Of a DNA stretch of 64,000 nt, positions 39,892 through 59,721 are shown piece after piece; positions within the stretch are counted from its first letter, which is position 1; each line of letters starts with the position of its first letter. Source of the stretch: Lachnospiraceae bacterium (GTDB lineage Bacteria > Bacillota > Clostridia > Lachnospirales > Lachnospiraceae). Under the pieces are notes generated by a model. That model was not told where the DNA came from, made no database searches, and worked only from the letters and a program-made list of their open reading frames with translations. The translations under genes were made by a program, and so were the position numbers. The stretch spans positions 1 to 64,000 of the forward strand of contig CAJTCL010000011.1 of the NCBI GenBank assembly GCA_910575005.1, written 5' to 3'.

Positions 39892-39921
39892 TTGACGAAT
39901 ACCTGCCATGTATGGTAGAAT
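39892..39921 (+). promoter_or_regulatory. Internal promoter of the second ABC exporter
   Basis: TTGACG (39892-39897) and TAGAAT (39916-39921) are 18 bases apart, with an extended TG motif (39913-39914) before the -10. The in-frame ATG at 39908 lies between the two boxes, which supports the later TTG start at 39959. Confidence 0.6.
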
Positions 39922-39958
39922 ATGTAAATTAGTAAATAGTGTTGGAGGAACTATAGTT

Positions 39959-40744
39959 TTGAAAAGATTTATAAATGACTCAAAAAAATATTGGGAATCT
40001 GCCAAGTTTTCTGCAAAATCGTCTTTGAAATCAGAAGTGGCCAGTTCTCATTTGAGCTGGTTGTGGTGGATCCTTGATCCTCTGCTCTTTATGTTGGTAT
40101 ATTCTTTTATTGCTTTGATTGTGTTTGGACGCGGGGAGAAATATTTTGCTGCGTTTGTGTTTATAGGATTGTCGAGTTGGAATTTTTTCTCTAAAACAGT
40201 AAGGCAGAGTGTTCGGCTTGTAAGCCAGAACAGCGCCATTGTATCGAAAGTGTATTTGCCAAAATATGTATTGGTTTATACGCAGATCATGATCAATGGA
40301 TTTAAAATGTTAATTTCTTTTGTACTGGTGATTGGCATTATGATAATATATCGGGTGCCGGTTGACTATAATCTTTTATTTGTGATACCGCTTTTTTTGA
40401 CATTGGGATTATTGACATTTGGTATAAGTTCCATTATGCTGCATTTTGGTGTATGGGTGGATGACTTATTTAATGTAGTAAATGTCTTGTTAAAGCTGGT
40501 ATTTTATTTGTCAGGTATCTTTTATAATATTGCCAACAGAAATATACCAGAACCGTATGCAGGGATTCTATTAAAAGGAAATCCAATTGCTTTTGTTATG
40601 AATGAACTAAGAAATTGTATGATTTATTCAACTACCCCAGATTTGGTATGGCTGGCTGTTTGGTTTGTGGCAGGAATCATTTTATCTGTCATCGGTGTCA
40701 AGATAATCTATAAATATGAAAACAGTTATGTAAAGGTGATTTGA
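39959..40744 (+). CDS. ABC polysaccharide exporter permease (Wzm/TagG-like), system 2
   Basis: This is a 261-residue ABC-2 permease with six hydrophobic segments and the family motif SSHLSWLWWILDPLLFMLVY. I chose TTG 39959 because GGAGG (39944-39948) lies ten bases before it; the only longer start (ATG 39908) falls inside the promoter at 39892. It is diverged from the first permease at 33463. Its stop is two bases before its ATPase partner, so they are coupled. Confidence 0.85.
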   Translation: MKRFINDSKKYWESAKFSAKSSLKSEVASSHLSWLWWILDPLLFMLVYSFIALIVFGRGEKYFAAFVFIGLSSWNFFSKTVRQSVRLVSQNSAIVSKVYLPKYVLVYTQIMINGFKMLISFVLVIGIMIIYRVPVDYNLLFVIPLFLTLGLLTFGISSIMLHFGVWVDDLFNVVNVLLKLVFYLSGIFYNIANRNIPEPYAGILLKGNPIAFVMNELRNCMIYSTTPDLVWLAVWFVAGIILSVIGVKIIYKYENSYVKVI

Positions 40745-40746
40745 TT

Positions 40747-41481
40747 ATGGAAAGCAAAGAATATGCGATAGAAGTTGAGAATCTAAAAATAAGATATCGG
40801 TGCTTAAAAAAGGTTTCCATAAGAAAAAGTCTTTTTTCTCCAAAGAAAAGTAAGGTGGAAACCTTTGAGGCTGTAAAAGGGATTTCTTTTAAAGTCCCAA
40901 AAGGAGAAATTTTGGGAATTATTGGCAAGAATGGAAGCGGGAAATCTACGCTTTTACGTGCCTTGGCGGGAATTTTTTCGGCAGATGAGGGGACAATTGA
41001 TTTGCATGGACATTCTGTTTCTCTGCTTTCAATTGGTGTAGGTTTTCAGAAGAAACTCAGTGGCCGAGAAAATATTTTGTTATCTGGAATACTGTTGGGA
41101 TTTACTGAGACACAGGTTCGGGAAAAGATGGATGAGATTATTGCTTTTTCTGAATTGGGAGATTTTATTGATCTGCCAGTGAAAACATATTCTAGTGGTA
41201 TGTACTCTAAGCTGGCGTTTTCGATTACAGCAATTTTGGAAACAGAGATTATGCTGGTGGATGAAGTGTTAAGTGTGGGAGATGCTAAGTTTAAGAAAAA
41301 AAGTTTTAAAAAAATGAGACAATTGATTTCAAATAAAGAACGGACTGTGGTGATCGTGTCACATAATAGTGATACGATCAATCGGCTGTGTAATTCAGTG
41401 CTCTGGATTCATGATGGATTGGTGAAGATGCAGGGTACGACACAGGAAGTAATGCCGAAATATGAGGAATTTATGGCGTAA
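40747..41481 (+). CDS. ABC polysaccharide exporter ATPase (Wzt/TagH-like, no C-terminal domain), system 2
   Basis: This 244-residue ATPase has GKNGSGKSTLLRALAG, a TYSSGMYSKLAFSI signature, MLVDEVLSVGD and VIVSHNSDT. It lacks the substrate-binding extension of the first ATPase, so it should export without reading an end cap, as in TagGH teichoic acid export. ATG 40747 follows AAAGGTGA; a TTG six bases upstream is less likely. Confidence 0.9.
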   Translation: MESKEYAIEVENLKIRYRCLKKVSIRKSLFSPKKSKVETFEAVKGISFKVPKGEILGIIGKNGSGKSTLLRALAGIFSADEGTIDLHGHSVSLLSIGVGFQKKLSGRENILLSGILLGFTETQVREKMDEIIAFSELGDFIDLPVKTYSSGMYSKLAFSITAILETEIMLVDEVLSVGDAKFKKKSFKKMRQLISNKERTVVIVSHNSDTINRLCNSVLWIHDGLVKMQGTTQEVMPKYEEFMA

Positions 41482-41506
41482 AATGTCGTCAAACTGGAGG
41501 TTTATG

Positions 41507-42319
41507 ATGGATCAGGATGATAAACTTAAATTGCACAGCCATATATTAGATATATTTCAGGAAATAATAAGAGTGTGTGATGATTGCCATATTACTTATT
41601 TTATTATGGGAGGAACGGCATTGGGAGCAGTTCGGCATGGAGGATTTATTCCCTGGGATGATGATTTGGATATTGGAATGATGCGTCAGGATTATGAGAG
41701 GTTTTTGAGGGAAGCGCCAAGATGTTTGCGTCAAGATTTGTTTTTGCAGACCTATGAGACTGAGAAAAAATCTCCTTTTTATTTTGCAAAGGTACGGAAA
41801 AGCCATACAAAGTTTGTGGAGAAATACTGCCGGAATCTTCATATCCATGATGGAATTTATGTAGATATTTTTCCATATGATAATATACCAGATGCTAAGG
41901 TCGAGCGCAACAACTATTATAAAAAGTCCAAAATTCTTCTAAATCTCTATATTGCTAAATGTTTGACAGGGACAAGCGTGGAATATAGTGGGTGGAAAAA
42001 TCTGTGCTATAAAAGTATTCGCACTATATTTCATATATTATTACTACCAATTCCAAAATCATTTCTGTTTCGCTTAGTAGATAAAAATTTGCAAAGATAT
42101 AATAGTAGCGATACAGAATATGTGGGATATGGAGGGCTGCCTAAAATACAGGTTCCAAAGAATGATGTTGTATCTCCAGCAGAGATTAAATTTGAGGGGC
42201 TTATGGTAAAATGCCCCAGAAATATTGAAAATTATCTGCATGATAATTTTGGGGATTATCGTCAATTACCACCAAAAAATGAAAGAAAGGGACATGCACC
42301 ATATAAGATGCAGGTATAA
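41507..42319 (+). CDS. LicD family phosphotransferase
   Basis: LicD proteins transfer phosphocholine or another phosphodiester-linked group from a CDP donor to surface polymers. Diagnostic motifs are present: FIMGGTALGAVRHGG, PWDDDLDIGM with the catalytic acidic cluster, and YVDIFPYDN. I took ATG 41507 because GGAGG lies six bases before it; ATG 41504 is only three away. It has 270 residues. The next gene is a phosphonate enzyme, and a LicC-like nucleotidyltransferase lies at 46480, so the group transferred here may be a phosphonate and not choline. No choline uptake or kinase gene is in the window. Confidence 0.88.
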   Translation: MDQDDKLKLHSHILDIFQEIIRVCDDCHITYFIMGGTALGAVRHGGFIPWDDDLDIGMMRQDYERFLREAPRCLRQDLFLQTYETEKKSPFYFAKVRKSHTKFVEKYCRNLHIHDGIYVDIFPYDNIPDAKVERNNYYKKSKILLNLYIAKCLTGTSVEYSGWKNLCYKSIRTIFHILLLPIPKSFLFRLVDKNLQRYNSSDTEYVGYGGLPKIQVPKNDVVSPAEIKFEGLMVKCPRNIENYLHDNFGDYRQLPPKNERKGHAPYKMQV

Positions 42320-42330: not shown

Positions 42331-43455
42331 ATGAAAATTGATTATTTAATGAAAGAAATTGAAAAACTTGGAGTAAATTTTTATACAGGTGTACCAGATT
42401 CACAGTTAAAGGCGTTTTGTGATTTGTTAATGGAGCAATATGGTGTGGGAGAGCAGCATGTGATTGCTGCAAACGAAGGCGCGGCTGTGGGGCTTGCGGC
42501 AGGTCATTATTTGGCAACTGGAAATCCAGCAGTGGTCTATATGCAAAACAGTGGTATTGGTAATGCAGTCAATCCAATTTGTTCATTGGTAAATGACAAG
42601 GTTTATGCGATTCCAGTGCTGTTTATGGTTGGATGGCGGGGAGAGCCAGGAGTTCATGATGAACCACAGCATATTTATCAGGGAGAGATCACCAAAGAGA
42701 TTCTTGAGTGTCTGGGAGTGAAACATTTTGTGATCAGCAAGGAGACTACACCTGAGGAGCTGGAAACTTATTTTAAGGAAATTAAAGAAGAGTTCAAACT
42801 GGGGCACCAGTGTGCGCTTGTGGTGCGCAAAGGAGCGCTTGAATCAGAAGCAAAAGTTAAATATACCAATCACTATCCGATGTCCAGAGAGGAAGTGGTG
42901 AATTGCTTTGTGGATCATATGCAGGAAAAAGATGTTATTGTATCTACTACAGGAAAACTTTCCAGGGAGTTGTTTGAGGCCAGGGAAGCTAGAGGACAAG
43001 GGCATGAGAGAGATTTTCTTACGGTAGGTTCTATGGGGCATTCTTCTATGATTGCAATGGGAATTGCCAGAAAGAAGCGTGACAGGCGTGTATTCTGTCT
43101 GGATGGAGATGGAGCAGTGTTAATGCACATGGGAAGTCTTGCAGTAGCTGGTGCTGATAAATTGAACAATTTTGTGCATGTGCTGTTTAATAATGGAGCG
43201 CATGAGACAGTCGGAGGGCTGCCAACGGTAAGTGAATCGATATCTTATCCAGAGATCGCACAGGCATGTGGCTATGATCATATTTTTAAGGCACAAAACA
43301 AGGAAGAGTTAGTTAAATTATTTGAGCAGATATATGCGGCAGAGGGCTCTGTATTTGTTGAGGTAAAGACCAATCTTGTTTCACGGGCGGATCTTGGACG
43401 GCCAACAACGACACCCATTCAGAATAAAGAAGCTTTTATGAATTTTTTAAAATAG
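42331..43455 (+). CDS. aepY: Phosphonopyruvate decarboxylase
   Basis: It is a thiamine diphosphate enzyme that drives phosphonate synthesis by decarboxylating phosphonopyruvate to phosphonoacetaldehyde. It has the N-terminal FYTGVPDSQLKAFCD and AANEGAAVGLAAGHYLATG with the cofactor Glu, the GWRGEPGVHDEPQH segment typical of this family, and a C-terminal GDG...NN thiamine-binding motif starting near residue 259. Length 374 is normal. The matching PEP mutase is 15 kb downstream at 58426. Confidence 0.92.
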   Translation: MKIDYLMKEIEKLGVNFYTGVPDSQLKAFCDLLMEQYGVGEQHVIAANEGAAVGLAAGHYLATGNPAVVYMQNSGIGNAVNPICSLVNDKVYAIPVLFMVGWRGEPGVHDEPQHIYQGEITKEILECLGVKHFVISKETTPEELETYFKEIKEEFKLGHQCALVVRKGALESEAKVKYTNHYPMSREEVVNCFVDHMQEKDVIVSTTGKLSRELFEAREARGQGHERDFLTVGSMGHSSMIAMGIARKKRDRRVFCLDGDGAVLMHMGSLAVAGADKLNNFVHVLFNNGAHETVGGLPTVSESISYPEIAQACGYDHIFKAQNKEELVKLFEQIYAAEGSVFVEVKTNLVSRADLGRPTTTPIQNKEAFMNFLK

Positions 43456-46479: not shown

Positions 46480-47211
46480 ATGAAAGCATTGATACTTAAT
46501 TCAGGTATAGGAAAGCGAATGGGAGAATTTACAACAACGCACAACAAATGTATGGCACAGATCGCGCCTGGTGTGGCAATTATTGATTGGCAGTTGCAAT
46601 TGCTGCAAAGAATAGGTATCACTGAAGTTGTAATTACTACAGGGCCTTTTGCAGATGCACTGCAGGAGCATGTGATTAGCCATTATCCAGAGATCCATTT
46701 TACATTCCGGCACAATCCTGTCTATGATAAGACAAATTATATTTATTCGATTGCTCTGGCAGCGGATGAACTGCGGCAGCAAGATATCTTGTTATTACAT
46801 GGAGATTTAGTGTTTGAGGAGAGTGTGCTGCGAGATATTGCAGAGAGTGAAAGCAGTGCTATGGTGGTAGACAAGTCTCTGCCTCTTCCTGAGAAAGATT
46901 TTAAAGCGGTTGTGCAGCAGGGGAAAATTACGAAGGTTGGTATTGAGTATTTTACGGATGCTTATGCGGCACAACCCTTGTATAAGTTATTAAAAGACGA
47001 TTGGAATCTCTGGCTGGATCAAATTGTGAATTTTTGTGACAGAGGGGAACGCAATGTCTATGCAGAAAATGCATTGAATGAAGTTAGTGATCGTGTTTGT
47101 ATCAAGCCATTTGATGTCAATCAGCGAATTTGTACAGAGGTAGATAATCTGGATGATCTTGAGAGAGTTCAGACTATGATGAAGGAAATCGTGGAATCAA
47201 AGAGACAATAG
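46480..47211 (+). CDS. LicC/PntC-like nucleotidyltransferase
   Basis: This 243-residue NTP-transferase-fold protein has a variant signature loop LNSGIGKRMGEFTTTHNKCM, where most relatives have LAAGxGxR, then DWQLQLLQRIGITEVVITTG and the metal-binding HGDLVF. This type activates phosphocholine (LicC) or aminoethylphosphonate (PntC) with CTP. Its place between phosphonopyruvate decarboxylase and the reductase fusion suggests that it makes a CMP-phosphonate. The substrate is inferred from context. Confidence 0.75.
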   Translation: MKALILNSGIGKRMGEFTTTHNKCMAQIAPGVAIIDWQLQLLQRIGITEVVITTGPFADALQEHVISHYPEIHFTFRHNPVYDKTNYIYSIALAADELRQQDILLLHGDLVFEESVLRDIAESESSAMVVDKSLPLPEKDFKAVVQQGKITKVGIEYFTDAYAAQPLYKLLKDDWNLWLDQIVNFCDRGERNVYAENALNEVSDRVCIKPFDVNQRICTEVDNLDDLERVQTMMKEIVESKRQ

Positions 47212-47223
47212 TTGGAGAGCGTG

Positions 47224-48084
47224 ATGTTGTTTTATGTGAAACAGGGGATAAAGACAATTTTAAAGCAGGGGATAAAGGTTTGGTATCATACAGTAGGATG
47301 GTTTCGGTGCTTAGGAATTACTATGACATCCAATGGTAAGGTTTTTGTTTCGTTTCGAGACAAGTATAAAGGAAAGCGCTGCTTTTTAATTGGAAATGGT
47401 CCCAGTCTCACCGAAGCAGATTTAGAGAGCATTGCACAGAATCAAGAGATCAGTTTTGCCTGTAATATTATTTATCATTTGTACGATAAAGTAAAATGGA
47501 GGCCAACTTATCATTTTATATCAGATGTGATTTATACAGTAGGATTATCGGAGGATATTGCTGACAGCATAGATACTACTCTATTTGTCAATCGTGATGC
47601 CTATCGGGAAATGAAAAAAAAGCCTCGGAATCTAGTATATGTAAATTGTATCAACCAAAAGAAATATTTTGTCAGCAACAACATATTGGCATATTATGTT
47701 CCAGCACAGGCTACAGTGATGACATTTATGTTGGAGATGGCGATGTATATGGGATTTAAGGAAATATATCTTCTGGGTGTAGACTGTACAAATTCTTTTA
47801 CTAAGGGACATTTTACCAAAGATTATGTTCCAACAGAGTTAGACGAATATAATTTGAATCGGGCTAGGCGGACTATGAATCGTCCCAATATGACGTTGGA
47901 GGAATTGGGAGAATATCGCAGAGAACGTTCCATTATGGCATATCAGAAAATTCAGGAATATGCACGCAAACATGGGGTGAAGATTTATAATGCATCCCGT
48001 GGCGGGGAACTGAATGTATATGAACGAGTGGATTTTGACACACTAATGGATGAGGAGAAAATGCATGGATACAATACTTTATAG
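47224..48084 (+). CDS. DUF115/MptE-like GNGPSL protein, putative glycosyltransferase
   Basis: This 286-residue protein has RCFLIGNGPSLTEADLESIA at about residues 54-75, YHFISDVIYT and YLLGVDCTNSFTKGHF. The GNGPSL motif occurs in MptE-like, Maf flagellin-modifying and GT42 sialyltransferase proteins. A close paralogous domain is the C-terminus of the next gene's product. I chose ATG 47224 (GGAGAG upstream) over TTG 47212. Its 3' end overlaps the next gene by 20 bases. With CMP-Kdo-type genes in the locus, transfer of a CMP-activated acidic sugar is a reasonable guess. Confidence 0.65.
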   Translation: MLFYVKQGIKTILKQGIKVWYHTVGWFRCLGITMTSNGKVFVSFRDKYKGKRCFLIGNGPSLTEADLESIAQNQEISFACNIIYHLYDKVKWRPTYHFISDVIYTVGLSEDIADSIDTTLFVNRDAYREMKKKPRNLVYVNCINQKKYFVSNNILAYYVPAQATVMTFMLEMAMYMGFKEIYLLGVDCTNSFTKGHFTKDYVPTELDEYNLNRARRTMNRPNMTLEELGEYRRERSIMAYQKIQEYARKHGVKIYNASRGGELNVYERVDFDTLMDEEKMHGYNTL

Positions 48085-51000
48085 AAAAGAAACAATATTT
48101 TTAGATTCTAAGGCGGAACAGGATTATACACAGGTATTTGACATGATTGGCTGCAAGAACGTATTCGCTGTATGTTCCGAGAGTGCAAAAGAACGCTATG
48201 GCAGACAATTGTTTTCTGATTCCCAGATAGCGGTGACATGGTTTGGCAGTTTTGCCTCAAATCCTATATATGAAGATGTTGCGGCAGGGGTAGAATTATT
48301 TCGCAAAGACTCATATGATGCGGTTGTCTCGATTGGAGGAGGAAGCGCGATTGATGTTGCCAAAGCTATTTTGGCGTTTTCTAATATGGATCCTTCCAGG
48401 GATTATATGGAACAGGAGATTACTGAGAGTAAAATTCCGCATCTGGCAGTACCTACTACTGCAGGAACAGGCAGTGAATCCACACATTTTGCAGTTGTCT
48501 ATGTAAATGGTGAAAAAAAATCAATTGCCCATGAATCTCTGCTTCCAGATTATGCACTGTTGGAGCCATTATATTTAGAAAGTCTGCCCTTGTTTCAGAA
48601 AAAGTGTACAGTATTAGATGCCTTGTGTCAGGCAATTGAGTCATACTGGTCTGTAAAATCTACGGAGGAGAGCAGAGGTTATGCAAAGGAAGCCATCAAT
48701 TTGATTCTTAGAAATATTGATTCCTATATTGCAGAAAAAGATGTAGTTTATGCGAGAATAATAAAAGCAGCAAATTTGGCTGGCCGTGCGATTGATATTA
48801 CCCAGACGACAGCAGCCCATGCCATGAGCTATAAATTGACTAGTTTATATGGTATTCCGCATGGTTTTGCAGTAGCGGTATGCCTTCCGTTTGTATGGGA
48901 AATGTTTCTTACCAATATAGATCAATGTATTGATCAGCGTGGAGAAAGTTATCTCTTAAGTATAATGCGTGATTTGCAGGAACTTTTTGGGACAGATTCT
49001 TTAGAACATACAATTATGATGTTTCGCGCAATATTGGCTCGCATGGAGATAAATTTAAATAATTATCAGTTGGCAGATAATTTGGATGTTTTGGCACAAT
49101 CTGTAAATATACAAAGGCTTGGTAATTTTCCAATTCATCTATCTGAACAGAATTTGAGAGAGATTTATCAAAAAGCATTTGAAAAAGAGGATATATTCAA
49201 ACCAGAATATGAAATGATTCTTGAAATAGCCTCAAATTTTAGAAGTTTAGATAAAAAAAAGTATAAGATTCAGAAAAAAATACTGGCATTCGATCTGCAA
49301 ACGTTAGATCGAGATCGTACCATAGAGGCAGCGTGGTTTTTCTATAAATCTTTAGAATATATGTTGGAATATCCTGAAGATACTTCTGTTTTATGTCTCA
49401 CGAAGGAATGTCAGTATTTGTGGGGAATGATGGCCTCCTATATCAAACAGACAGAGGCGGGATTGTATTATGTTAATCGGATCAAAGATCAATTAGAGAT
49501 TTTAGAATCTAAGTATGGACCAAGCAAATCAGAAAAACTTGCAGAAAAGATATGTTCTGTCATTCCTATGAAAAATAGGAAAATGTATTTGTATGTCAGA
49601 CAGGCATATGTCACATATCAAATAAAAAAAGCAGTACAGCTTGAGAAGCTATGTGCATTATTTGGTATTCAAGATTCTGTTTTGCTGTGCAGCATATTTG
49701 AAGGCTTGCTCTATCAGTTTGGGCTGAATGAGTACCATTATTTTACAGAACAAGAGGAGCAGGCATGTTTACAAATATTGTCAGAAGTCTCTATATTAGA
49801 GGGCAATCAAGACGAGTTTTGGCAGTGTTTGAAGGCAGTTTTCCAGGAGAAACCTCAAGAACAGAAATCTTATGATATTTTGTGCTGGCAGTATATTGTC
49901 AATAAGAGTAATGAGATACGGATGAAGCATTATCTGGAAGATGTCCGCACAGAACAGAAACTGCTTCTGAAAGAGGTGACGCAAGCATTGGGAGAGAGAG
50001 CCTATGCTTTGTGCGGGCCAACACTGGAAAATGCCTTAAATTTTCAAGAATATTCCGCCAACAGGCAAGGGATTACAATAGCGGTTTCTGATGCTCTCGC
50101 TGTGATTGAGGCAGATTTACAGAAAAAAAATCAAGTGCTTAAGTGTCTGTTGCAAGAAAATGTGTTATATGTGTATCATAATAACACCAAATGGCTGAGT
50201 ACAGAAGATGATGTACGTGGTTTGGGCATTTATATTAAATTGCTGCAGATGCCAGCTCTGAATTATGGAACTGATCAAGTAGAATTTGCCGGACAGAAGT
50301 ATCGTATTCCTGATAATTGTGACTATGCAATAGATTTATTCAAACAAGAAATGAAATGGGCTGTCACAGGACAGTATTCGGATCGCCCTTCAGTCGTGGA
50401 GATTGGCGGTAAAAAATATGTATTTAATGAGACAAGAGCTTCTGGAGCTGCACATGTTTCTTCTAAGAAAAAAAAGGGAGGAACAATCAGAAAGATCTTT
50501 CGGAAGATAAAACAGTCAGTGATGCATGGGACAAAAGAACGTCCCGTGGCTAAAGAAATTTTTCGGAGAATTTTGGAGTTTAAACGCAAAGTGGTCTACA
50601 CTTTGAGATATAAATATAAGTTTCAGGTTGATGATAAAATTGTACTGTTTGAATCCTATCATGGGAAGAATTACAACTGTAATCCCAGAGGAGTTTATGA
50701 GGCAATGCTCAAGGATGAGCGATATCTGGATTATACGTTTGTCTGGGCATTTAAGGAGCCGGAAAAGTATCGTTATCTGGAAGATAATTTTAGTACCATT
50801 GTGGTAAAATCTGCTTCTAAAAAGTATTATAAATATTGTGCTTCAGCAAAATATATTGTTTTGAATTTGCTGCTTCGTCCACAGATTACCTTAAAAAAAG
50901 AGCAGACCTATATCCAGACTTGGCATGGGAAGCCCATCAAAACGATTGGTTGTGGGAAACGTTTTGAGACAGATCCCAGAAGACGCTTGAAGGACACTTA

Positions 51001-52621
51001 CAGGCATTTTACCAGAAATGGTAAGCGAATAACGAAATTGCTTTCGCCTTCGGATTTTTTTGGCCCAGTTATGGGAGAGGCATTTAATTTTACAAAATTG
51101 AAAAAGAATAGAGATATTGTGCCAGCAGGCTATCCCAGAAATGATGCATTATTCCGATATCAGGAAGGGGATATCATGCGCATTAAACAACAGCTTGGGA
51201 TTGATCCAGAGAAGAAAGTGATTCTCTATGCACCAACCTGGCGTGAATTGTTTTCAGATTATATTGAAAAGGAAGCAATGGATGTGGTATTGAGAGTCAG
51301 TGATTCGATTGATTTTGCTGATCTGCACCAGGAGTTGGGAGATGAGTATTTGATTTTATTCAGAGCCCATCATTTAGATGCAAAGGCTATGGATATCTCC
51401 CGATACGGAGATTTTATCATTGATGTGACTGAGTATGAGAATGTAAATGATTTGTATATCATCAGCGATTTGATGATCTCCGATTATTCTGGCACCATTT
51501 TTGATTTTGGAGTATTAAAACGTCCAATGGTATTTTATATGTTTGACAGGGAACTGTACACTACTAAGCTGCAGGGTGTAAATATTGATTTGGATGAATT
51601 GCCGGGAATTTTTGTGGAGCGGGAAGAAGAACTTGCCCCTGCGATTAAAAAGCAATTTGCAGAATTTCAGTATGATGAAAAGTATGAGCGTTTTAATCAG
51701 AAATATAATCAATATGATGACGGACATTCTGGCCAGAGGGTGATTGATCAGTGTATGCCAGATAATGTGCTGCATAAAACCTTGACAACTCAGGCTGTGA
51801 AAAAGTTTATCAAACAAAAAATGTTATTTTTTACAAAACCGCTTAAGAAGCTGAAATTAAATTTCAATGGATTGCTGCGGGAAAAAGGGATTATTAAGGA
51901 TGATAATACCAGTAAGCTGTTGGAATTAAAGAATAAGTATGCAGGCCAGAGATGCTTTTTAGTGGGAAATGGTCCAAGCTTAACAGCAGAAGACTTAGAT
52001 ATGATTGCCGATGAAGTTACGTTCGGCTGCAATATGGTATATAAAATGTTTCAAAAGACAAAATGGCGGCCGACCTACCATTTTATTGTTGACATCATCT
52101 ACACCAAGAATTTATATCGGGAGATTAAGAATAATATTACCTCTCCGATGATTACTCATAACATAGCTTATCGTTCTATGAAGCAAAAACCGGACAATAT
52201 TGCGTATGTCAATACATTTTCACAGGAGGATTATCAGATTCGAGGAAATATGCTTGCCTATTATATACCAGCGCGGGCTACCGTAATGACATTTATGATT
52301 GAGATGGCAATGTTTATGGGATTTAAGGAGATCTATCTTTTAGGAACAGATTGTACCAATTCTTTTACCAGCGGCCATTTTGGTGAGGAGTATGTAGCCT
52401 CTGATTTGGATAAGGTAAATCTGGCCAGGGCAAGGAGAACGATTGGCAATCCAAATTTGACACTCGCAGAGTTAGGCGAGTATCGTCGGGAACGTTCCAT
52501 TGGGGCATATCAAAAAATAGCTTTGTATGCGAAAAAAGCAGATGTTAAGATTTACAATACCACAAGGGGAGGGGCACTGGAGGTCTTTCCCAGAAAGAAC
52601 CTTGAGGATGTGTTAAGTTAG
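48065..52621 (+). CDS. Fusion: Fe-type alcohol dehydrogenase, TagF-like phosphotransferase and GNGPSL domain
   Basis: This is a 1518-residue fusion. Residues 1-395 are an iron-type alcohol dehydrogenase like phosphonoacetaldehyde reductase: GGGSAIDVAKAIL, PTTAGTGSES, metal ligands D185, H252 and H266, with Gln189 where His is usual. Residues 400-850 are helical and unassigned. Residues about 855-1225 are a CDP-glycerol glycerophosphotransferase (TagF) domain: VLFESYHGKNYNCNPRGVYE, TWHGKPIKTIG, GYPRNDALF, LYAPTWRE, LMISDYSGTIFDF. Residues about 1284-1518 repeat the previous gene's GNGPSL domain. ATG 48065 follows AGGAG. I infer that it makes hydroxyethylphosphonate and attaches a CMP/CDP-linked group. 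Confidence 0.8.
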   Translation: MDTILYRKETIFLDSKAEQDYTQVFDMIGCKNVFAVCSESAKERYGRQLFSDSQIAVTWFGSFASNPIYEDVAAGVELFRKDSYDAVVSIGGGSAIDVAKAILAFSNMDPSRDYMEQEITESKIPHLAVPTTAGTGSESTHFAVVYVNGEKKSIAHESLLPDYALLEPLYLESLPLFQKKCTVLDALCQAIESYWSVKSTEESRGYAKEAINLILRNIDSYIAEKDVVYARIIKAANLAGRAIDITQTTAAHAMSYKLTSLYGIPHGFAVAVCLPFVWEMFLTNIDQCIDQRGESYLLSIMRDLQELFGTDSLEHTIMMFRAILARMEINLNNYQLADNLDVLAQSVNIQRLGNFPIHLSEQNLREIYQKAFEKEDIFKPEYEMILEIASNFRSLDKKKYKIQKKILAFDLQTLDRDRTIEAAWFFYKSLEYMLEYPEDTSVLCLTKECQYLWGMMASYIKQTEAGLYYVNRIKDQLEILESKYGPSKSEKLAEKICSVIPMKNRKMYLYVRQAYVTYQIKKAVQLEKLCALFGIQDSVLLCSIFEGLLYQFGLNEYHYFTEQEEQACLQILSEVSILEGNQDEFWQCLKAVFQEKPQEQKSYDILCWQYIVNKSNEIRMKHYLEDVRTEQKLLLKEVTQALGERAYALCGPTLENALNFQEYSANRQGITIAVSDALAVIEADLQKKNQVLKCLLQENVLYVYHNNTKWLSTEDDVRGLGIYIKLLQMPALNYGTDQVEFAGQKYRIPDNCDYAIDLFKQEMKWAVTGQYSDRPSVVEIGGKKYVFNETRASGAAHVSSKKKKGGTIRKIFRKIKQSVMHGTKERPVAKEIFRRILEFKRKVVYTLRYKYKFQVDDKIVLFESYHGKNYNCNPRGVYEAMLKDERYLDYTFVWAFKEPEKYRYLEDNFSTIVVKSASKKYYKYCASAKYIVLNLLLRPQITLKKEQTYIQTWHGKPIKTIGCGKRFETDPRRRLKDTYRHFTRNGKRITKLLSPSDFFGPVMGEAFNFTKLKKNRDIVPAGYPRNDALFRYQEGDIMRIKQQLGIDPEKKVILYAPTWRELFSDYIEKEAMDVVLRVSDSIDFADLHQELGDEYLILFRAHHLDAKAMDISRYGDFIIDVTEYENVNDLYIISDLMISDYSGTIFDFGVLKRPMVFYMFDRELYTTKLQGVNIDLDELPGIFVEREEELAPAIKKQFAEFQYDEKYERFNQKYNQYDDGHSGQRVIDQCMPDNVLHKTLTTQAVKKFIKQKMLFFTKPLKKLKLNFNGLLREKGIIKDDNTSKLLELKNKYAGQRCFLVGNGPSLTAEDLDMIADEVTFGCNMVYKMFQKTKWRPTYHFIVDIIYTKNLYREIKNNITSPMITHNIAYRSMKQKPDNIAYVNTFSQEDYQIRGNMLAYYIPARATVMTFMIEMAMFMGFKEIYLLGTDCTNSFTSGHFGEEYVASDLDKVNLARARRTIGNPNLTLAELGEYRRERSIGAYQKIALYAKKADVKIYNTTRGGALEVFPRKNLEDVLS

Positions 52622-52639
52622 AAAGAATGGAGGATTCAA

Positions 52640-53293
52640 ATGAAAGTTGTTGCGTTGGTGCCAATTAAATTAAATAGTCAGAGGCTTCCGCATAAGAATA
52701 TATTGCCTATTTTGGGGAAACCTATGTGTTATCATATGGTAGATAGTTTAGTACAGACGAAGAACATTGATGAGGTTTATGTATATTGCAGTGATCCGAA
52801 AGTGACAGAATATATTCCTGAGGGTGCAACATTTCTGCAAAGAGACAAAAAGTTGGATCAGGATTTGGTAAAAGGTTTTGAAATTTATCGTTCCTTCATT
52901 GAAACTGTGGATGCAGATGTGTATGTTTTGGCGCATACTACTTCTCCGTTTACCAAGACAGAGACCATTGAGAATGCTTTAAGCCATATTTTAAGCGGGG
53001 AGTGTGATTCCGCATTTTCAGCGGAGCGAGTGCAGACATTTGCATGGTATCAGGGAAAGGCCATAAATTATGATTTAAATGATGTGCCCAGAACTCAGGA
53101 TATGGAGCCAATCTGGGTAGAGACAAGCGCTTTTTACATGTTTAAAAAGGAAATATTTACCGAACATAATCGACGGATTGGATTTCATCCATATATTCAG
53201 GAAGTGTCAGGAATTGAGGCCGTAGACATTGATACAAAACAAGATTACGATTTTGCGGTAGAGATGTCCAAGCAACTGGAAACAGATATTTAA
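52640..53293 (+). CDS. NeuA-type acylneuraminate/Kdo cytidylyltransferase
   Basis: This 217-residue protein activates an acidic sugar with CTP. The N-terminal loop VPIKLNSQRLPHKNILPILG is intermediate between NeuA (KGIPxKN) and KdsB types, and AHTTSPFTKTETIENAL and YVLAHTTSPF mark the nucleotide-binding region. It lies 20 bases before kdsA, so the substrate is most likely Kdo, although the sequence looks more like NeuA than KdsB. GGAGG precedes the start. Another acidic sugar cannot be excluded. Confidence 0.8.
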   Translation: MKVVALVPIKLNSQRLPHKNILPILGKPMCYHMVDSLVQTKNIDEVYVYCSDPKVTEYIPEGATFLQRDKKLDQDLVKGFEIYRSFIETVDADVYVLAHTTSPFTKTETIENALSHILSGECDSAFSAERVQTFAWYQGKAINYDLNDVPRTQDMEPIWVETSAFYMFKKEIFTEHNRRIGFHPYIQEVSGIEAVDIDTKQDYDFAVEMSKQLETDI

Positions 53294-53313
53294 TTTAGGA
53301 AAGAGGGAAAAAA

Positions 53314-54096
53314 GTGAATAATAAGTATTTTTCTTTGATTGCAGGACCATGTGTAATTGAGTCAGAAGAAATGGTGATGGATATTGCTGAAAAGATGAAA
53401 GAGATTACAGAGCGTCTGGGCATTGATTATTATTTTAAAGCATCGTTTGATAAGGCCAACAGAACTTCGATATCTTCCTTCCGCGGACCAGGAATTGAAG
53501 AAGGAATGCGGATTCTAAAGGCGGTGAAAGATAGATTTGGATTGCGGATTGCCACAGATATCCATGAACCGTGGCAGGCGAAACAGGCAGCAGAGGTGGC
53601 AGATATCATTCAGATTCCGGCGTTTTTATGTAGACAAACGGATCTGCTGGTGGCAGCAGCACAGACAGGAAAGATTATCAATATTAAAAAGGCACAATTT
53701 CTTGCACCGTGGGATATGAGAAATGTAGTAAATAAAGTAAAAGAATCTGGAAATGAGAAATTGATGTTATGTGAGAGAGGGACTAGTTTCGGTTATAATA
53801 CCTTGGTAGTTGATATGACTGGAATTGTGGAGATGAAGAAATTTGGATGTCCAGTCGTATTTGACGCCACTCACAGTGTGCAAAAACCAGGCGGAAAAGG
53901 AGATGCCACAGGAGGCAACCGTGAATTTGTGGAGCCGCTTGCAAAAGCAGCACTTTCAGTAGGTGCCGATTGGTTATTTATGGAGGTTCATCCAGATCCT
54001 GACCATGCACTTTCGGATGGACCTAATATGGTGAAATTGTCTGATTTGGAAGAGATGTTAAAACGTTTGATCAAAGTATACCAGGCGGTTCATTAG
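53314..54096 (+). CDS. kdsA: 3-deoxy-8-phosphooctulonate synthase
   Basis: It condenses PEP with arabinose-5-phosphate to Kdo-8-phosphate. Hallmarks include [19 protein letters not shown] (which separates KdsA from DAHP and NeuB synthases), [34 protein letters not shown] and [16 protein letters not shown]. The Cys in AGPC (residue 13) marks the metal-dependent class. It starts at GTG 53314 after AAAGAGGGA. Its 260 residues are near standard length. Kdo is typical of Gram-negative envelopes, so its presence here is notable. Confidence 0.93.
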
Positions 54097-54105
54097 GAGG
54101 AAAAT

Positions 54106-55074
54106 ATGGATATATTACAAGAAGGAAAAAATGTGTTTGCAATCGAGATGGCGGGAATCCAGAAGCTTCAGGACAGTTTAGGCCAGGAGTTTGTTACACT
54201 CGCAGAGAGTATCCATAATTGCCAGGGAAGAGTGGTCTGGACAGGAATGGGTAAATCTGGACATATTTGTGAGAAGGTAGCAGCAACAATGGCTAGTATT
54301 GGCATCAAAGCCTATTACATGCATCCGGCAGAAGGGCTGCACGGTGATTTGGGGCTTTTAAAGAAAGAAGACATTGTAATTGCACTTAGTAACAGCGGAG
54401 AAACAGATGAAGTATTGGGTTTGCTGCCTTCTATGAAGATGATTGGAGCAAAGTTATATAGCGTTGTTGGAAGAAAAAATAGTACTTTAGAACGGTATTC
54501 AGAAGTGACAATTGTATTTCCAGAGATGGAGGAGGCATTTTTAGGAAATTTGGTGCCTTCCACTACCACAACAGTTTCTCTTGTTCTAGGAGATGCTTTG
54601 GCAGTTGTTGTTTCTAAACTTCGGGGATTCACATCAAAAGATTTTGCAGTCTTTCATCCAAATGGTCTTTTAGGACGAAAACTGACCATGAAAGTTAAGG
54701 ATTTGATGAAGAAGGATGATGAGAATGCAGTCATTGAGTCAGGAATGAAAGTGGAACAGGCCATTATGGAAATGTGTAAAAAGCCAATCGGATGTGTCAA
54801 TGTCGTTGATAAAGAGGGGCATTATATTGGAATTTTTACAGATGGAGATTTGCGGCGGTTGATAGGTCGTAAAGGTGCACAGGCAATGAGCGAATGTATT
54901 GATGATGTCATGACGCAAAATCCAGTGCAGATTGATCCAGATATTTTGGTGGTCGAGGCAGTGGAAAAGATGCAGGATATGGATCGCAAAGTATCTACAT
55001 TGGCAGTTGTAGAAAATGAAAAAGTGATAGGCACATTATGTGTAGCTGATATAGCAAAGGCAGGTTTGATTTAA
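54106..55074 (+). CDS. kdsD: Arabinose-5-phosphate isomerase (KpsF/GutQ family)
   Basis: It converts ribulose-5-phosphate to arabinose-5-phosphate, the acceptor of KdsA. The SIS domain (about 40-180) has WTGMGKSGHICEKVA and ALSNSGETDEVLGL. Two CBS domains (about 205-320) follow, as in all KdsD. The length is 322. AGGAGG precedes the start, and its stop overlaps the kdsC start (TAATG). Confidence 0.93.
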   Translation: MDILQEGKNVFAIEMAGIQKLQDSLGQEFVTLAESIHNCQGRVVWTGMGKSGHICEKVAATMASIGIKAYYMHPAEGLHGDLGLLKKEDIVIALSNSGETDEVLGLLPSMKMIGAKLYSVVGRKNSTLERYSEVTIVFPEMEEAFLGNLVPSTTTTVSLVLGDALAVVVSKLRGFTSKDFAVFHPNGLLGRKLTMKVKDLMKKDDENAVIESGMKVEQAIMEMCKKPIGCVNVVDKEGHYIGIFTDGDLRRLIGRKGAQAMSECIDDVMTQNPVQIDPDILVVEAVEKMQDMDRKVSTLAVVENEKVIGTLCVADIAKAGLI

Positions 55075-55541
55075 TGACACAGAAGATTAAGATATTGGCA
55101 ATGGATGTAGATGGAACTTTGACAGACGGGAAAATATATATGGGTGCAGAGGGAGAACTCTGTAAAGCTTTTCATATTAAGGATGGTCTGGGGATTGTCA
55201 AACTTAAGAAACATGGGATTATACCTGTAATTATCACAGGAAGGGTTTCCCAGATTGTTGCCAATCGTGCAAAGGAACTTGGGATTGAGGAAGTTTATCA
55301 GGGAGTGGAGGACAAAGGTGCAGTTCTCAAAGAACTTGTAAATAAATATGGAATTACATTGGATAAGACAGCTTATATTGGGGATGATTGTAATGATTTG
55401 GGAGTTATGGAGGCTGCGGGAATAACATTTGCACCAGCCGATGCAGTCAGGGAAGTTCGAGAATATGTGGATGTAACAGTGGACTCTAGAGGTGGCGAAG
55501 GTGCAGTTCGGGATGTAGTGGAGTATTTGCTAAAAATGTAA
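55074..55541 (+). CDS. kdsC: Kdo-8-phosphate phosphatase
   Basis: This HAD phosphatase gives free Kdo. The motif AMDVDGTLTDGKIYM has the nucleophile and acid Asp, then VIITGRVSQIVANRA, and GDDCNDLGVMEAAG with the metal Asp pair. It is 155 residues long, slightly short for KdsC but without a cap domain, as expected. A related HAD acting on Neu5Ac-9-P is less likely given kdsA and kdsD directly upstream. Confidence 0.88.
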   Translation: MTQKIKILAMDVDGTLTDGKIYMGAEGELCKAFHIKDGLGIVKLKKHGIIPVIITGRVSQIVANRAKELGIEEVYQGVEDKGAVLKELVNKYGITLDKTAYIGDDCNDLGVMEAAGITFAPADAVREVREYVDVTVDSRGGEGAVRDVVEYLLKM

Positions 55542-55579
55542 GTGACGGGAGATTATAAATTTCTAGGAGGATGTTCATT

Positions 55580-58399
55580 ATGAACAAAAAGATAAAGAAA
55601 ACATTGGTATATTTAGCCCCACACGGATTAGTTGCAAAGCGCCGCAAAGCTCAAAAAGAACGAGAACTGGAACAGAAACGTATAGAACAAGAACAAAAGC
55701 GTTTAGAACAAGAACGCAAGAGAGAACAGAAACGTTTAGAACAAGAGCGAAAACAAGAACAAAAGCGTTTAGAACAAGAGCGTAAGCGTCTGGAACAAGA
55801 GCGAAAGAGAAAAGAACGAGAACGCAAAGAGCAGGAACGAGAACGCAAAGAGCAAGAACGAAAACGCAAAGAGCAGGAGCGGAAGGCGCGTATTCAGGAA
55901 GAAAAGAAAAATAAATTTCTTTATGGGAAAAAGACCAGAAAATGGAGTATTTATTATTCAGAATATCATCAAAAAGAAGAGTTAGAAGAAACATGGGTTC
56001 TTTATGAATCCCATGATGGTATTGGGATGTTATGCAATCCCTATGCTATTTTCCGGGCGTTTCAAAAAATGCCAGAATTTGATAAGTATATCCATATCTG
56101 GGTCATTGATAATGATGAGGAGCGGCAGATTTTACAAGAAGAATACAGCAATTATACAAATGTATTTTTTATTCGTTATTGTAATAAAGCATATGCATAT
56201 TTTTTGGCAAAGGCTAAATTTTTAATCAATAATACCTCTTTTCCGTTTGTTTTTTCTAAACGAGAGGGACAGATATATCTGAACACTTGGCATAGTATAA
56301 CAGTAAAAACTTTGGGGTATGATACTCCAGATGGGAATCGAATTGTGAAAAATATGATTCGTAATTTCCTGATGTCAGATTATATTATTTCTCCCAATGC
56401 TTTTATGACAAAAATTTTTGAAGAATCTTTTCGTCTGGCGAATGTTTTTGAGGGGAAATATATCCAGCAAGGTTATCCGCGGAATGATTTGACAATACAT
56501 GCGCAGAGAGAGCATATTTTAAAGAAATTAGAACAGCATGGAACGAGAATAGATCCTGACAAAAAAGTGATTCTTTATGCTCCTACTTGGACTGGGAATG
56601 CTGCAAATCAGCCAATTATTGACATGTCAAAGTACACAGATTTGTATGAGCATCTATCTTCTCATATTGATACACAGAAATATCAGATACTCATTAAGCC
56701 ACACCATGTGGTTTATCGGAGGCTGAGTAAAGAAGAAAAAGATTCTGGTTATTATGTTTCCTATGCAATTGATACCAATGAACTGCTTTCCATTGTAGAT
56801 ATTTTGATTACTGATTATTCCAGTATTTATTTTGATTTTCTTGTGACAGACAGACCAATACTGTTTTACATTCCAGATTATAGGCAATATGAACAGATAC
56901 GAGGAATTTATTTTAAATTGGAAGAGCTTCCAGGCCCTTGTGCCAAATCCTTAGAGAGTTTAGAAGAATGTGTTAATCAGATAGAAAAATATGAGAAAGA
57001 CTATCAGGCAATACGAAAACGGACAAGGGAATGGGCTTGTAAATTTGATGATGGTCATGTATCAGAGAAAATTATTGATGTGGTATTCTGCAACAAAGAA
57101 CATGATCAGGTATTGTCACCACAGCGAGATGGAAGAAAGAAGATCTTGATGTTTGGAGGAAATTTTCAGACAAATGGTGTGACCAGTGCAATGTTAAGTT
57201 TATTAAAAGTTATAGATTATCAAAAATATGACGTTTCCTTATTTGTGTTATCTTTAAAATCAAATGTACAGGATGAAAATTTTGATAAACTGCCAAGTCA
57301 AATCAGAGTGCTCATGCGTTGTGGATCACCTATGTTTACAGAGGAGCAAAATGAAATTTATCAGAAAACTTTGCACAATGGATTTGCGATTGCTCCACAA
57401 GAAATACCGATGCAAGAGTATTTGATGAGACGAGAATTTATGCGTTGTTTTGGGGACAGTAAATTTGATTATGTGATTGATTTTGCTGGATATGTAACAT
57501 ATTTTTCTTGTTTGGTTTTAAAACAATGTAAGGAAGCAGTAAAATTGATCTGGCAGCATAGTGATATGATGAGGGATTTTAAAAATGTTGAGAAGAAAGC
57601 ACTAAATAAGAGCTCAACAACGATTGATAGTATATTGTCAGTGTATCCTTATTATCAGAAAATTGTCTCAGCAAGCGAACCTATTTGTATAGTAAACAGG
57701 GAAAATCTTGCGACTAAGGAGACAAGAGATAAATTTACTTATGCTAGTAATATTTTAGATCAAGATCGAATAAAAACGTTAGAACAGTCGGTACCTAAAT
57801 GTAGGATTGGGGGAAGGCTATATATAAGAATTATTAATGAAATTAGTAAAAATGATGTACAAAATGTTACTTTGATTCCATTAGACAATGGAGAAAAACC
57901 CAGTATAAAATTTGTAACTATGGGAAGATGTATGCCAGAGAAGAACCACCATACTTTGATTCGGGCCCTGAAGCGTTTGATCGAGGAAGGGGAAGATTGT
58001 ATGCTGTATATCGTCGGAGATGGGCATATGCGAAGTGAGTTAGAAAATTTAGCTGAGAAATTGGGGATTGGAAATAGAGTGATTATCACTGGTTTTATGT
58101 CAAATCCTTTTGTAATTATGAAGGAATGTGATTGTTTTGTATTCCCTTCTATCTATGAGGCACAAGGATTGGCAGTTCTGGAAGCCAGGATGGTGGGACT
58201 TCCTATTGTAGTTAGTAATTATCCAGCCGTGACTTCTGTCTTGCTGGAAGATAAACAATATATTATGAATGGAACTGATACAGAAGCAGTGTATGAAGGA
58301 ATGCGGGCTTATTTGGACGGCAAGGTACCTGGAGATTATCAGTTCGATGCCCAACAATACAACCAGAAGGCATACCAAGAATTTTTAGATTTGCTTTAA
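55580..58399 (+). CDS. Fusion: coiled coil, TagF-like phosphotransferase and GT4 glycosyltransferase
   Basis: This 939-residue protein has a highly charged N-terminal coiled coil (residues 27-110, units like LEQERKR). A TagF-like CDP-glycerol phosphotransferase domain follows (about 130-495: LYESHDGIGMLCNPYAIF, TWHSITVKTLG, GYPRNDLTI, LYAPTWTGN, IKPHHVVY, LITDYSSIYFDF). Then comes a GT-B family 4 domain (about 515-939: MFGGNFQTNGVTSAMLSLL, GRCMPEKNHHTLIRAL, PSIYEAQGLAVLEA). I chose ATG 55580 because AGGAGG lies nine bases before it. It may add a polyol phosphate and a sugar in one complex. Confidence 0.82.
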   Translation: MNKKIKKTLVYLAPHGLVAKRRKAQKERELEQKRIEQEQKRLEQERKREQKRLEQERKQEQKRLEQERKRLEQERKRKERERKEQERERKEQERKRKEQERKARIQEEKKNKFLYGKKTRKWSIYYSEYHQKEELEETWVLYESHDGIGMLCNPYAIFRAFQKMPEFDKYIHIWVIDNDEERQILQEEYSNYTNVFFIRYCNKAYAYFLAKAKFLINNTSFPFVFSKREGQIYLNTWHSITVKTLGYDTPDGNRIVKNMIRNFLMSDYIISPNAFMTKIFEESFRLANVFEGKYIQQGYPRNDLTIHAQREHILKKLEQHGTRIDPDKKVILYAPTWTGNAANQPIIDMSKYTDLYEHLSSHIDTQKYQILIKPHHVVYRRLSKEEKDSGYYVSYAIDTNELLSIVDILITDYSSIYFDFLVTDRPILFYIPDYRQYEQIRGIYFKLEELPGPCAKSLESLEECVNQIEKYEKDYQAIRKRTREWACKFDDGHVSEKIIDVVFCNKEHDQVLSPQRDGRKKILMFGGNFQTNGVTSAMLSLLKVIDYQKYDVSLFVLSLKSNVQDENFDKLPSQIRVLMRCGSPMFTEEQNEIYQKTLHNGFAIAPQEIPMQEYLMRREFMRCFGDSKFDYVIDFAGYVTYFSCLVLKQCKEAVKLIWQHSDMMRDFKNVEKKALNKSSTTIDSILSVYPYYQKIVSASEPICIVNRENLATKETRDKFTYASNILDQDRIKTLEQSVPKCRIGGRLYIRIINEISKNDVQNVTLIPLDNGEKPSIKFVTMGRCMPEKNHHTLIRALKRLIEEGEDCMLYIVGDGHMRSELENLAEKLGIGNRVIITGFMSNPFVIMKECDCFVFPSIYEAQGLAVLEARMVGLPIVVSNYPAVTSVLLEDKQYIMNGTDTEAVYEGMRAYLDGKVPGDYQFDAQQYNQKAYQEFLDLL
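55658..55909 (+). repeat. Repetitive coding tract for a charged coiled coil
   Basis: The DNA repeats near-identical units such as TTAGAACAAGAGCG and CGCAAAGAGCAGGAACG, encoding Glu-Gln-Arg-Lys heptads. Repeats of this kind can change copy number by recombination or slippage without losing frame when unit lengths are multiples of three. It is part of the gene at 55580, not a CRISPR array. Confidence 0.75.
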
Positions 58400-58425: not shown

Positions 58426-59721
58426 ATGAGCACTGTATATTTAAGTATGAGTACCGATATTATTCATGGAGGTCACATGAATATTATTGAGAAAGCAGCA
58501 GAATTAGGAGAATTGACAGTTGGTGTCTTGACAGATGATGTGGTGGCTAGTTACAAGCGTTTTCCGTTGCTTTCATATGAGGAAAGAGTAAAAATTATTC
58601 AAAGTATTAAGGGGGTAGCACGGGTAATCTCTCAAGATACCTTAAGCTATAAAAAGAATTTGGAGGAATTGAAGCCGGATTATTTAGTACACGGCGATAA
58701 CTGGAAGGAGGGATTTCAGAGAGCTATTCGCGAGGAAGCGATTGAAGTGTTAGCTTCCTATGGCGGTATTTTAAAGGAATTTGCCTATTCTTCAGATGCA
58801 CAGTATCAGAGATTGGAGGATGCTTCCAGAGATCGTCTGTCCATTCCAGATGTGAGAAGGAGCCGGTTGAAAAAACTATTGGGCATGAAGACAACTGTGA
58901 ATGCAATTGAAGCACATAATGGACTGACAGGAATTCTCGCAGAGAAAACCCAGGTATTAGAAGAGGGCAAGGCATATCAGTTTGATGCTATGTGGGTTTC
59001 CAGCCTTTGTGATTCTACATCCAGAGGAAAGCCAGATATTGAATTGGTTGATATGACTTCAAGGCTGCATACAATTGAAGAAATTATGGAGGTCACTACC
59101 AAACCAATTATTTTTGATGGAGATACCGGCGGAAAGATTGAACATTTTGTCTACAATGTTAAGACATTGGAACGGATTGGCGTATCTGCATGTATTATCG
59201 AGGATAAAGTAGGCCTTAAGAAAAATTCATTGTTTGGAAATGAAGTGGTGCAGACACAGGATAGTATTGAACATTTCTGTCAAAAGATCCAGGCTGGAAA
59301 AAAGGCATTGAAGACCAGTGATTTTATGCTGATTGCAAGAATAGAGAGCTTAATCCTTGAGCAGGGTATGGAGGATGCATTAAATCGGGCCTTTGCTTAT
59401 ATAGAAGCAGGGGCAGACGGAATTATGATTCATTCCAGATTGAAAGATCCAGCAGAGATATTTGAATTTTGTGAGAAGTTCCGTGCGAAAGATTCGAGAA
59501 CTCCAATTGTTGTGGTGCCGACTTCTTTCAATATGGTGACAGAGGAAGAATGGGCAGAGAGAAATGTCAATGTGGTAATTTATGCGAATCAGTTGACCAG
59601 AAGTGCGTTTCCAGCAATGGAAACTGTGGCAAAAATGATACTTAAGAATCATCGGGCTAAGGAAGCAGATGAGGTATGTATGCCTTTTAAGGATATTATT
59701 CGTCTGATTCCAGAGGAGTAA
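58426..59721 (+). CDS. aepX: Cytidylyltransferase-phosphoenolpyruvate mutase fusion
   Basis: PEP mutase rearranges PEP to phosphonopyruvate, the entry to all C-P bond synthesis. Residues about 150-431 are the mutase, with WVSSLCDSTSRGKPDIELVD and the family-defining EDKVGLKKNS (about 259-268). Residues 1-135 are a TagD-like nucleotidyltransferase with HGGH (14-17) and LTVGVLTDDVV. PEP mutases with such a front domain are known (AepX type). AAAGGAGG precedes the start. Together with aepY it commits the locus to phosphonate synthesis, although the two genes are 15 kb apart. Confidence 0.92.
   Translation: MSTVYLSMSTDIIHGGHMNIIEKAAELGELTVGVLTDDVVASYKRFPLLSYEERVKIIQSIKGVARVISQDTLSYKKNLEELKPDYLVHGDNWKEGFQRAIREEAIEVLASYGGILKEFAYSSDAQYQRLEDASRDRLSIPDVRRSRLKKLLGMKTTVNAIEAHNGLTGILAEKTQVLEEGKAYQFDAMWVSSLCDSTSRGKPDIELVDMTSRLHTIEEIMEVTTKPIIFDGDTGGKIEHFVYNVKTLERIGVSACIIEDKVGLKKNSLFGNEVVQTQDSIEHFCQKIQAGKKALKTSDFMLIARIESLILEQGMEDALNRAFAYIEAGADGIMIHSRLKDPAEIFEFCEKFRAKDSRTPIVVVPTSFNMVTEEEWAERNVNVVIYANQLTRSAFPAMETVAKMILKNHRAKEADEVCMPFKDIIRLIPEE

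Follow-up and report, generated by a model that had tools for sequence, protein, structure and literature searches.

Architecture and integrity of the fusion gene

The window analysed here comprises 64,000 nucleotides (positions 1 to 64,000 of contig CAJTCL010000011.1, assembly GCA_910575005.1, from a Lachnospiraceae bacterium) and carries, within a phosphonate gene cluster, a single stop-free frame at 48065-52621 on the forward strand that encodes a product of 1518 residues. The open frame itself begins at 48050, and GAGGAG at 48052-48057 lies upstream of the start ATG at 48065. A Pfam search of the product yields four domain matches, all exceeding their own gathering scores. Residues 1-371 form an iron-containing alcohol dehydrogenase (Fe-ADH) domain, 372-832 are an orphan stretch, 833-1232 make up a TagF-like domain, and 1250-1518 are the MptE-like/DUF115 domain. 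An earlier note on this DNA had claimed three catalytic-type domains in one frame, and Pfam indeed places PF00465/PF25137, PF04464 and PF01973 in one product.

48065..49177, + strand: Fe-ADH domain, predicted phosphonoacetaldehyde reductase (PF00465/PF25137, clade, residue table)
49178..50560, + strand: orphan stretch, perhaps mostly helical (in-frame coding, homologue searches, unusable model)
50561..51760, + strand: TagF-like domain, putative phospho/phosphonotransferase, residues 833-1232 (PF04464, alignment to 3l7i/3l7j/3l7m)
51812..52618, + strand: MptE-like/DUF115 domain, predicted CMP-ulosonate transferase, residues 1250-1518 (PF01973, fold, profile)

The frame is real and is treated here as one gene, a misjoin being unlikely, because its codon use matches that of six cluster genes in this frame alone and along the whole chain, including the orphan stretch. 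With a codon table built from these six genes, the middle stretch scores 0.219 in frame, the remaining forward frames give -0.54 and -0.61, and all 60-codon windows starting at residues 300-870 score above zero (minimum 0.086). That an assembly misjoin or a base error merged two or more genes into the frame would fit with the full fusion being seen in no second genome searched, yet it is very improbable: the middle stretch codes in the same frame on either side of each border, and a misjoin would need to preserve both the frame and the operon order on a 156-kb contig, on which the gene sits 48 kb from the start. In addition, by eye, the first in-frame ATG past the end of the Fe-ADH domain (49214) has AGAGG ~23 bases upstream, too distant for a usual ribosome site.

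The orphan stretch has no match in Pfam (searched to E 5) or among PDB sequences (to E 10). Searches of genome sets that overlap in part gave the same picture: no homologue was found in 396 other genomes of the family (three partial rows with E 0.003-0.005 were judged chance), no row of a full-chain search against 28 other genomes of the genus (E<=1e-60) spans the stretch, and a GTDB contig scan with six short peptides from it matched 27 stretches, 0 of which were confirmed. A single-sequence AlphaFold prediction has mostly helix at ~363-657 and mixed structure thereafter, with a mean pLDDT of 38.1, and is unusable as a model. Of the earlier description as a 450-residue unassigned helical region, "unassigned" thus stands, while "helical" rests on this unusable model. 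A by-eye suspicion of a decayed LicD domain at ~630-800 was abandoned, as a LicD profile did not bear it out: 630 of 2000 shuffled versions equalled or exceeded the score of the stretch, and its reversal exceeded it.

The Fe-ADH domain

The N-terminal domain matches PF00465 with 119.3 bits (cut-off 31.3; residues 11-168) and PF25137 with 72.5 bits (residues 182-371). At the nicotinamide- and metal-site positions tested it keeps GGGS, D185, Q189, H252 and H266, the last four of which we take to be metal-site residues. A search of 397 family genomes at E<=1e-45 matched the domain at 22 places outside the window, and Ppd (phosphonopyruvate decarboxylase) and/or PepM (phosphoenolpyruvate (PEP) mutase) lies within 1.5 kb of 17 of them. 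A quick tree, with long branches flagged, groups the window domain, these 22 and the Fe-ADHs of G002, G011, G023 and G034, which were added by score and are each located in a phosphonate cluster, apart from 13 other Fe-ADHs (support 100). The domain scores 513.6 bits on the profile of this clade and appears intact. In the window genome it is the sole place at E<=1e-45 (the next Fe-ADH scores 104.4 bits), and no PhnW/AepZ was found there above cut-off.

Because of the clade, the kept residues, the phosphonate neighbourhoods and the missing PhnW/AepZ, 2-hydroxyethylphosphonate (HEP) is the likeliest product, and the domain probably reduces phosphonoacetaldehyde to HEP. The idea of a small phosphonate alcohol, put forward in the earlier note, accordingly agrees with family, clade and gene context as judged from sequence. 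A route to 2-aminoethylphosphonate (AEP) was considered and is weakened by the same absence, although a transaminase of another kind may serve. Three observations count against HEP formation by this domain: Q189 replaces the His usual in the clade (Gln occurs in 7 of 27 members, or 6 of 26 relatives); the Phn_Fe-ADH/PsrA equivalog TIGR03405 scores 140.9 bits, below its cut-off of 423.7; and the loci L075, L076, L079, L080 and L091 have no PepM/Ppd in ~9 kb on each side.

The TagF-like domain and its donor

PF04464 matches residues 850-1229 with 303.6 bits (cut-off 22.1), and H954 (in WHGKP) and H1102 (in RAHHL) align with H444 and H584 of Staphylococcus epidermidis TagF (3l7i, E 1.4e-61; 3l7j and 3l7m, used in the same alignment, are His variants of TagF). 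The catalytic roles of these TagF histidines are covered in the accessible part of PMC11666461. The TarF equivalog NF041712 scores 240.4 bits, below its cut-off of 550.

TagD, the glycerol-3-phosphate cytidylyltransferase, was found above cut-off neither in the window genome nor in G002 and G011, the congeners with the nearest cluster, while the controls G315 and G218 were positive; the best place of the TagD search in all three genomes is the domain fused to PEP mutase. Because the window genome has no TagD and no PhnW/AepZ above cut-off, the gene context moderately favours CMP-HEP as the likeliest donor for the TagF domain. A competing explanation, which we consider unlikely, takes the domain for an ordinary transferase of polyol phosphate from a CDP-polyol, to which the Fe-ADH was joined by chance fusion of operon neighbours. 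TagD-like genes are indeed common at TagF-only loci (39 of 59 in a contig scan, versus 4 of 21 TagF-DUF115 loci, one of the four matches being the PEP mutase cytidylyltransferase of L101), and in G002 and G011 the genes for Fe-ADH and TagF lie side by side. On contig C1 of the window genome, PF04464 also matches weakly at two places, with 36.6 and 27.9 bits, and a further weak match, of IspD type, reaches 31.6 bits (cut-off 27), so that a second cytidylyl system or another cytidylyl donor may exist, which lessens the case for CMP-HEP. On the other side, besides the missing TagD, the genome has one strong IspD-type place alone (198.3 bits); the TagF clade of the window, G002 and G011 (five domains, support 99) occurs in phosphonate clusters alone; and Fe-ADH-like domains fused to transferases exist in other genomes (G352 and, more weakly, G002/G011), which argues against chance.

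The weak PF04464 proteins on C1 (~253.7-275.8 kb; L184, L185) lie near NTP-transferase, HAD-like and glycosyltransferase-like genes, most of them named by eye, in what is perhaps a second polymer locus.

We also considered the Lys of WHGKP as a mark of phosphonate use. It occurs in 5 of 210 aligned TagF rows (some genes were fetched twice; 21 duplicate or overlapping loci had been excluded beforehand), all five from PepM/Ppd loci of three congeners and in one clade, and the other three rows in PepM/Ppd loci have WHSI and come from a protein joining TagF to a GT4-type glycosyltransferase. The Lys is missing from TagFs of two other phosphonate clusters, those of G352 (WHGM) and G086 (THHG), which also tells against a phosphonate donor. 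With a single clade involved and other phosphonate-cluster TagFs differing, the motif was rejected as a mark and retained as a hint.

The C-terminal domain

PF01973 matches residues 1283-1431 with 46.5 bits (cut-off 34.6), with GNGPSL at 1301-1306, and fold and profile matches assign the domain to the Maf/CstII sialyltransferase type. Genes for CMP-ulosonate synthesis accompany 16 of 21 TagF-DUF115 loci versus 3 of 59 TagF-only loci, and in the window four Kdo-type genes come directly after the fusion. The domain is therefore a fairly likely CMP-ulosonate transferase, for 3-deoxy-octulosonate (Kdo) or a nonulosonate, as far as family and gene association can tell. The earlier call of a DUF115/GNGPSL domain was right as to the family, to which the Maf/CstII-type fold and the association with CMP-ulosonate genes are now added. 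Caution is advised by the top Foldseek match of the domain model, which is the archaeal MptE kinase 8sd5 (TM 0.35/0.42), and the fold by itself does not settle the reaction; moreover, 19 of the 21 TagF-DUF115 loci have no PepM in the examined stretch, so the TagF-DUF115 core is not phosphonate-specific.

Distribution and origin of the fusion

The whole fusion was found in none of the 28 other genomes of the genus, none of the 396 other genomes of the family (by the orphan-stretch search) and nowhere in the GTDB contig scan of close relatives. The earlier note took consistently separate homologues as an argument against its reading, and here the results are mixed. Of the 22 close Fe-ADH relatives, 21 have their own frame and one is a fusion of a nucleotidyltransferase (NTase) and Fe-ADH; such a fusion, of ~600 residues, lies beside PepM and Ppd in G163 (L196:8906-10690). 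An intact Fe-ADH is also a separate gene in G002 and G011. On the other hand, a decayed Fe-ADH is fused in G352 and probably in these two congeners.

The 945-residue protein of G352 (L229:5651-8488) comprises a decayed Fe-ADH (PF00465 75.5 bits, C-terminal part unmatched), a stretch of unknown fold that a search of 397 family genomes detected in G352 alone, a LicD domain and an MptE-like tail at E 0.049; it lies in a phosphonate cluster, where an intact Fe-ADH gene adjoins it. G002 and G011 encode proteins of 1296 and 1295 residues, in which an Fe-ADH-like piece precedes TagF-DUF115. This piece scores 24.2 and 13.5 bits on PF00465 (cut-off 31.3) and 10-13 bits on the clade profile, and is probably a decayed Fe-ADH; no relation was detected between the N-terminal part of these proteins and the orphan stretch (hhalign probability 0.03). 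Judged by these sequences, fusing Fe-ADHs of this type to activation or transfer enzymes is recurrent though rare.

Both TagFs of G002/G011 form the sister group of the window TagF (support 99), whereas the window's fused DUF115 clusters with two free-standing DUF115 genes, the one next to it and the one in G002 (support 97), and not with the fused DUF115 of G002/G011. The C-terminal join therefore looks independent, or gene conversion overwrote the domain. In G011 the neighbouring Fe-ADH and TagF are in the same frame, separated by one TGA and the ribosome-site-like GAGGTGACGAG, which shows how an Fe-ADH-TagF fusion could start.

The decayed fused domains raise another explanation, namely that the fused Fe-ADH serves chiefly for docking or dimerisation and keeps the transferase near the phosphonate enzymes, so that the fold recurs and not the catalysis. 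Fe-ADHs are commonly dimers. The domain is decayed in G352 and, by its below-cut-off scores, in G002/G011, and all three clusters carry an intact separate Fe-ADH gene; the fused domain may therefore serve structure over catalysis, which detracts from a catalytic role in the window. There, however, the fused Fe-ADH is intact on the clade profile with the tested motifs kept, and it is the only close match in its genome. We thus regard a mainly structural role as improbable and prefer a catalytic one.

The surrounding cluster

The cluster genes at 39908-59721 are all on the strand of the fusion, with MBOAT-type genes among them:

39908..41481, + strand: two genes for a polysaccharide ABC exporter resembling TagG/TagH (scores under the TagH equivalog cut-offs; weak permease match of 23.4 bits)
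41462..42319, + strand: LicD-family phosphotransferase (PF04991, 150.2 bits)
42331..43455, + strand: Ppd (TIGR03297, 484.8 bits, cut-off 312.5)
46480..47211, + strand: MobA/LicC-like NTase, PntC-type family (PF12804)
47212..48084, + strand: free-standing DUF115 protein sharing 53% identity with the C-terminal domain of the fusion, overlapping the fusion start by 20 bases
52640..53293, + strand: KdsB-like CMP-ulosonate synthetase (PF02348, 77.3 bits)
53314..54096, + strand: KdsA-like 3-deoxy-octulosonate-8-phosphate synthase (PF00793, 258.7 bits; KdsA name from the gene set)
54106..55074, + strand: KpsF/KdsD-like isomerase (SIS and CBS domains)
55074..55541, + strand: KdsC-like phosphatase (TIGR01670, 160.2 bits, cut-off 106.95)
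55571..58399, + strand: another TagF-like protein, joined to a glycosyltransferase of GT4 type (PF04464, 271.3 bits; PF00534, 108.7 bits)
58426..59721, + strand: cytidylyltransferase-PEP mutase fusion, Fom1 layout (TIGR02320, 409.1 bits, cut-off 319.55; PF01467, 58 bits)

The gene at 58426 combines a PEP mutase above cut-off with an N-terminal cytidylyltransferase, as expected of a Fom1-type PEP mutase. A domain related to the LicC-like NTase is fused to the cytidylyltransferase-PEP mutase in G023 and G034. As this NTase is also in the cluster, it too may make a CMP-phosphonate, which qualifies the route given below.

The cytidylyltransferase-PEP mutase is ~89% identical to its versions in G002/G011 (L026, L027), as compared with ~40-80% for other shared cluster proteins, hinting at separate transfer or strong constraint. 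The protein at 59736-61601, adjoining the PEP mutase and with homologues in the G002 and G011 clusters, has choline-binding-type repeats and, by eye, a metallo-beta-lactamase-type HxHxDH motif in its N-terminal part; it may bind the phosphonate polymer. Beside Fe-ADH/Ppd/PepM genes we also found, in G322 (L231:5355-7496), a TagF-like domain joined to a YidC-type membrane domain and, in G076 (L230:9828-14700), a TagF-like protein encoded after a YidC-type-sulfatase fusion, possibly other routes of phosphonate transfer.

Proposed function

With substrates and polymer deduced from families and context, the chances are about even that the protein joins a reductase to a two-transferase synthase of a surface polymer. 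Its C-terminal two-thirds would correspond, we infer, to a two-transferase polymerase like Cps3D, with a phosphonoacetaldehyde reductase in front. PEP mutase (58426) and Ppd (42331) would provide phosphonoacetaldehyde, which the Fe-ADH domain would reduce to HEP using NAD(P)H; HEP would be converted to CMP-HEP by the cytidylyltransferase half of 58426, as in Fom1; and the TagF domain would displace CMP and link HEP to an acceptor hydroxyl, much as TagF acts with CDP-glycerol. The Maf/CstII-like domain would move Kdo or a related ulosonate from CMP-Kdo made by the enzymes of 52640-55541, and we propose that the orphan stretch acts as a spacer or docking region for the transferases, comparable to the tetratricopeptide-repeat (TPR) region of Cps3D. 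The resulting surface polymer with HEP and ulosonate would be exported via the TagGH-like transporter. A bolder version, to which we give little credence, has one polypeptide making both HEP and an alternating HEP-Kdo polymer, a teichoic-acid-like phosphonate with a C-P backbone built from two CMP donors, with the Fe-ADH fold repeatedly fused as a tether of the phosphonate assembly line.

The locus offers candidates for the surface phosphonate step (TagF domain as transferase, CMP-HEP as donor and the Maf/CstII-like ulosonate transferase as partner) together with a covalent link to the reductase; phosphonate attachment thereby becomes testable with a few recombinant domains. It suggests that TagF-type enzymes could shift from polyol phosphates to phosphonates; if so, surface polymers would carry a C-P bond resistant to phosphatases.

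Comparison with known systems

No Fe-ADH-TagF fusion was met in the literature searched, although no search was worded for this exact fusion, and a phosphonyl/TagF/phosphonate query had no match; most subscription journals lay outside the coverage of both. Polysaccharides of marine dissolved matter are reported to carry HEP as an ester (PMC9381506, accessible part). The Fom1/PntC pathway (PMC6697681, accessible part) shares the cytidylyltransferase-PEP mutase fusion, Ppd, a predicted reductase and CMP activation of the phosphonate, the N-terminal domain of Fom1 producing CMP-HEP; unlike the window cluster, Fom1 belongs to fosfomycin synthesis. That part of the source terms the tailoring steps after CMP activation enigmatic, and the words "TagF" and "alcohol dehydrogenase" do not occur in the text.

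Maf flagellin transferases and CstII have the fold, the GNGPSL motif (by CstII alignment) and the use of CMP-ulosonate in common with the predicted C-terminal transferase, but are not fused to TagF; Maf accepts Kdo (PMC11339370, accessible part). The G352 protein resembles the fusion in its Fe-ADH-like domain, stretch of unknown fold, phosphotransferase and phosphonate cluster, and differs in its decayed Fe-ADH, LicD instead of TagF and weak MptE-like tail. In Haemophilus influenzae type b (PMC10299916, accessible part), Bcs3 combines TagF-like CroT with a second transferase in one chain, and a reductase feeds the activated alcohol, as predicted here; reduction and CTP activation are however carried out by Bcs1, separate from the polymerase, whereas in the fusion the predicted reductase is joined, and the Hib chemistry is that of phosphate, not of phosphonate as predicted for the fusion.

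Closest in layout are Cps3D and Cps7D (PMC11666461), which unite a helical (TPR) region, a TagF-like transferase with two histidines and a glycosyltransferase in one chain. They differ from the fusion in using CDP-glycerol and, in the accessible part of that source, in having no Fe-ADH mentioned; their glycosyltransferase is of the GT-B type with a GT4-type EX7E motif and was docked with UDP-Gal, whereas the fusion has a Maf/CstII-type domain, predicted to use a CMP-sugar. The fusion shares the TagF and glycosyltransferase-fold domains of this layout, its orphan stretch having no detected homologue and only the unusable model described above. The earlier note knew of no described enzyme with this order; this holds for the Fe-ADH in front and not for the chain of helical region, TagF-like domain and glycosyltransferase, already known from two-enzyme capsule polymerases (PMC10299916 and PMC11666461). 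The novelty is the Fe-ADH placed before a TagF-like two-transferase chain; multi-domain TagF-like polymerases and phosphonate tailoring are already known.

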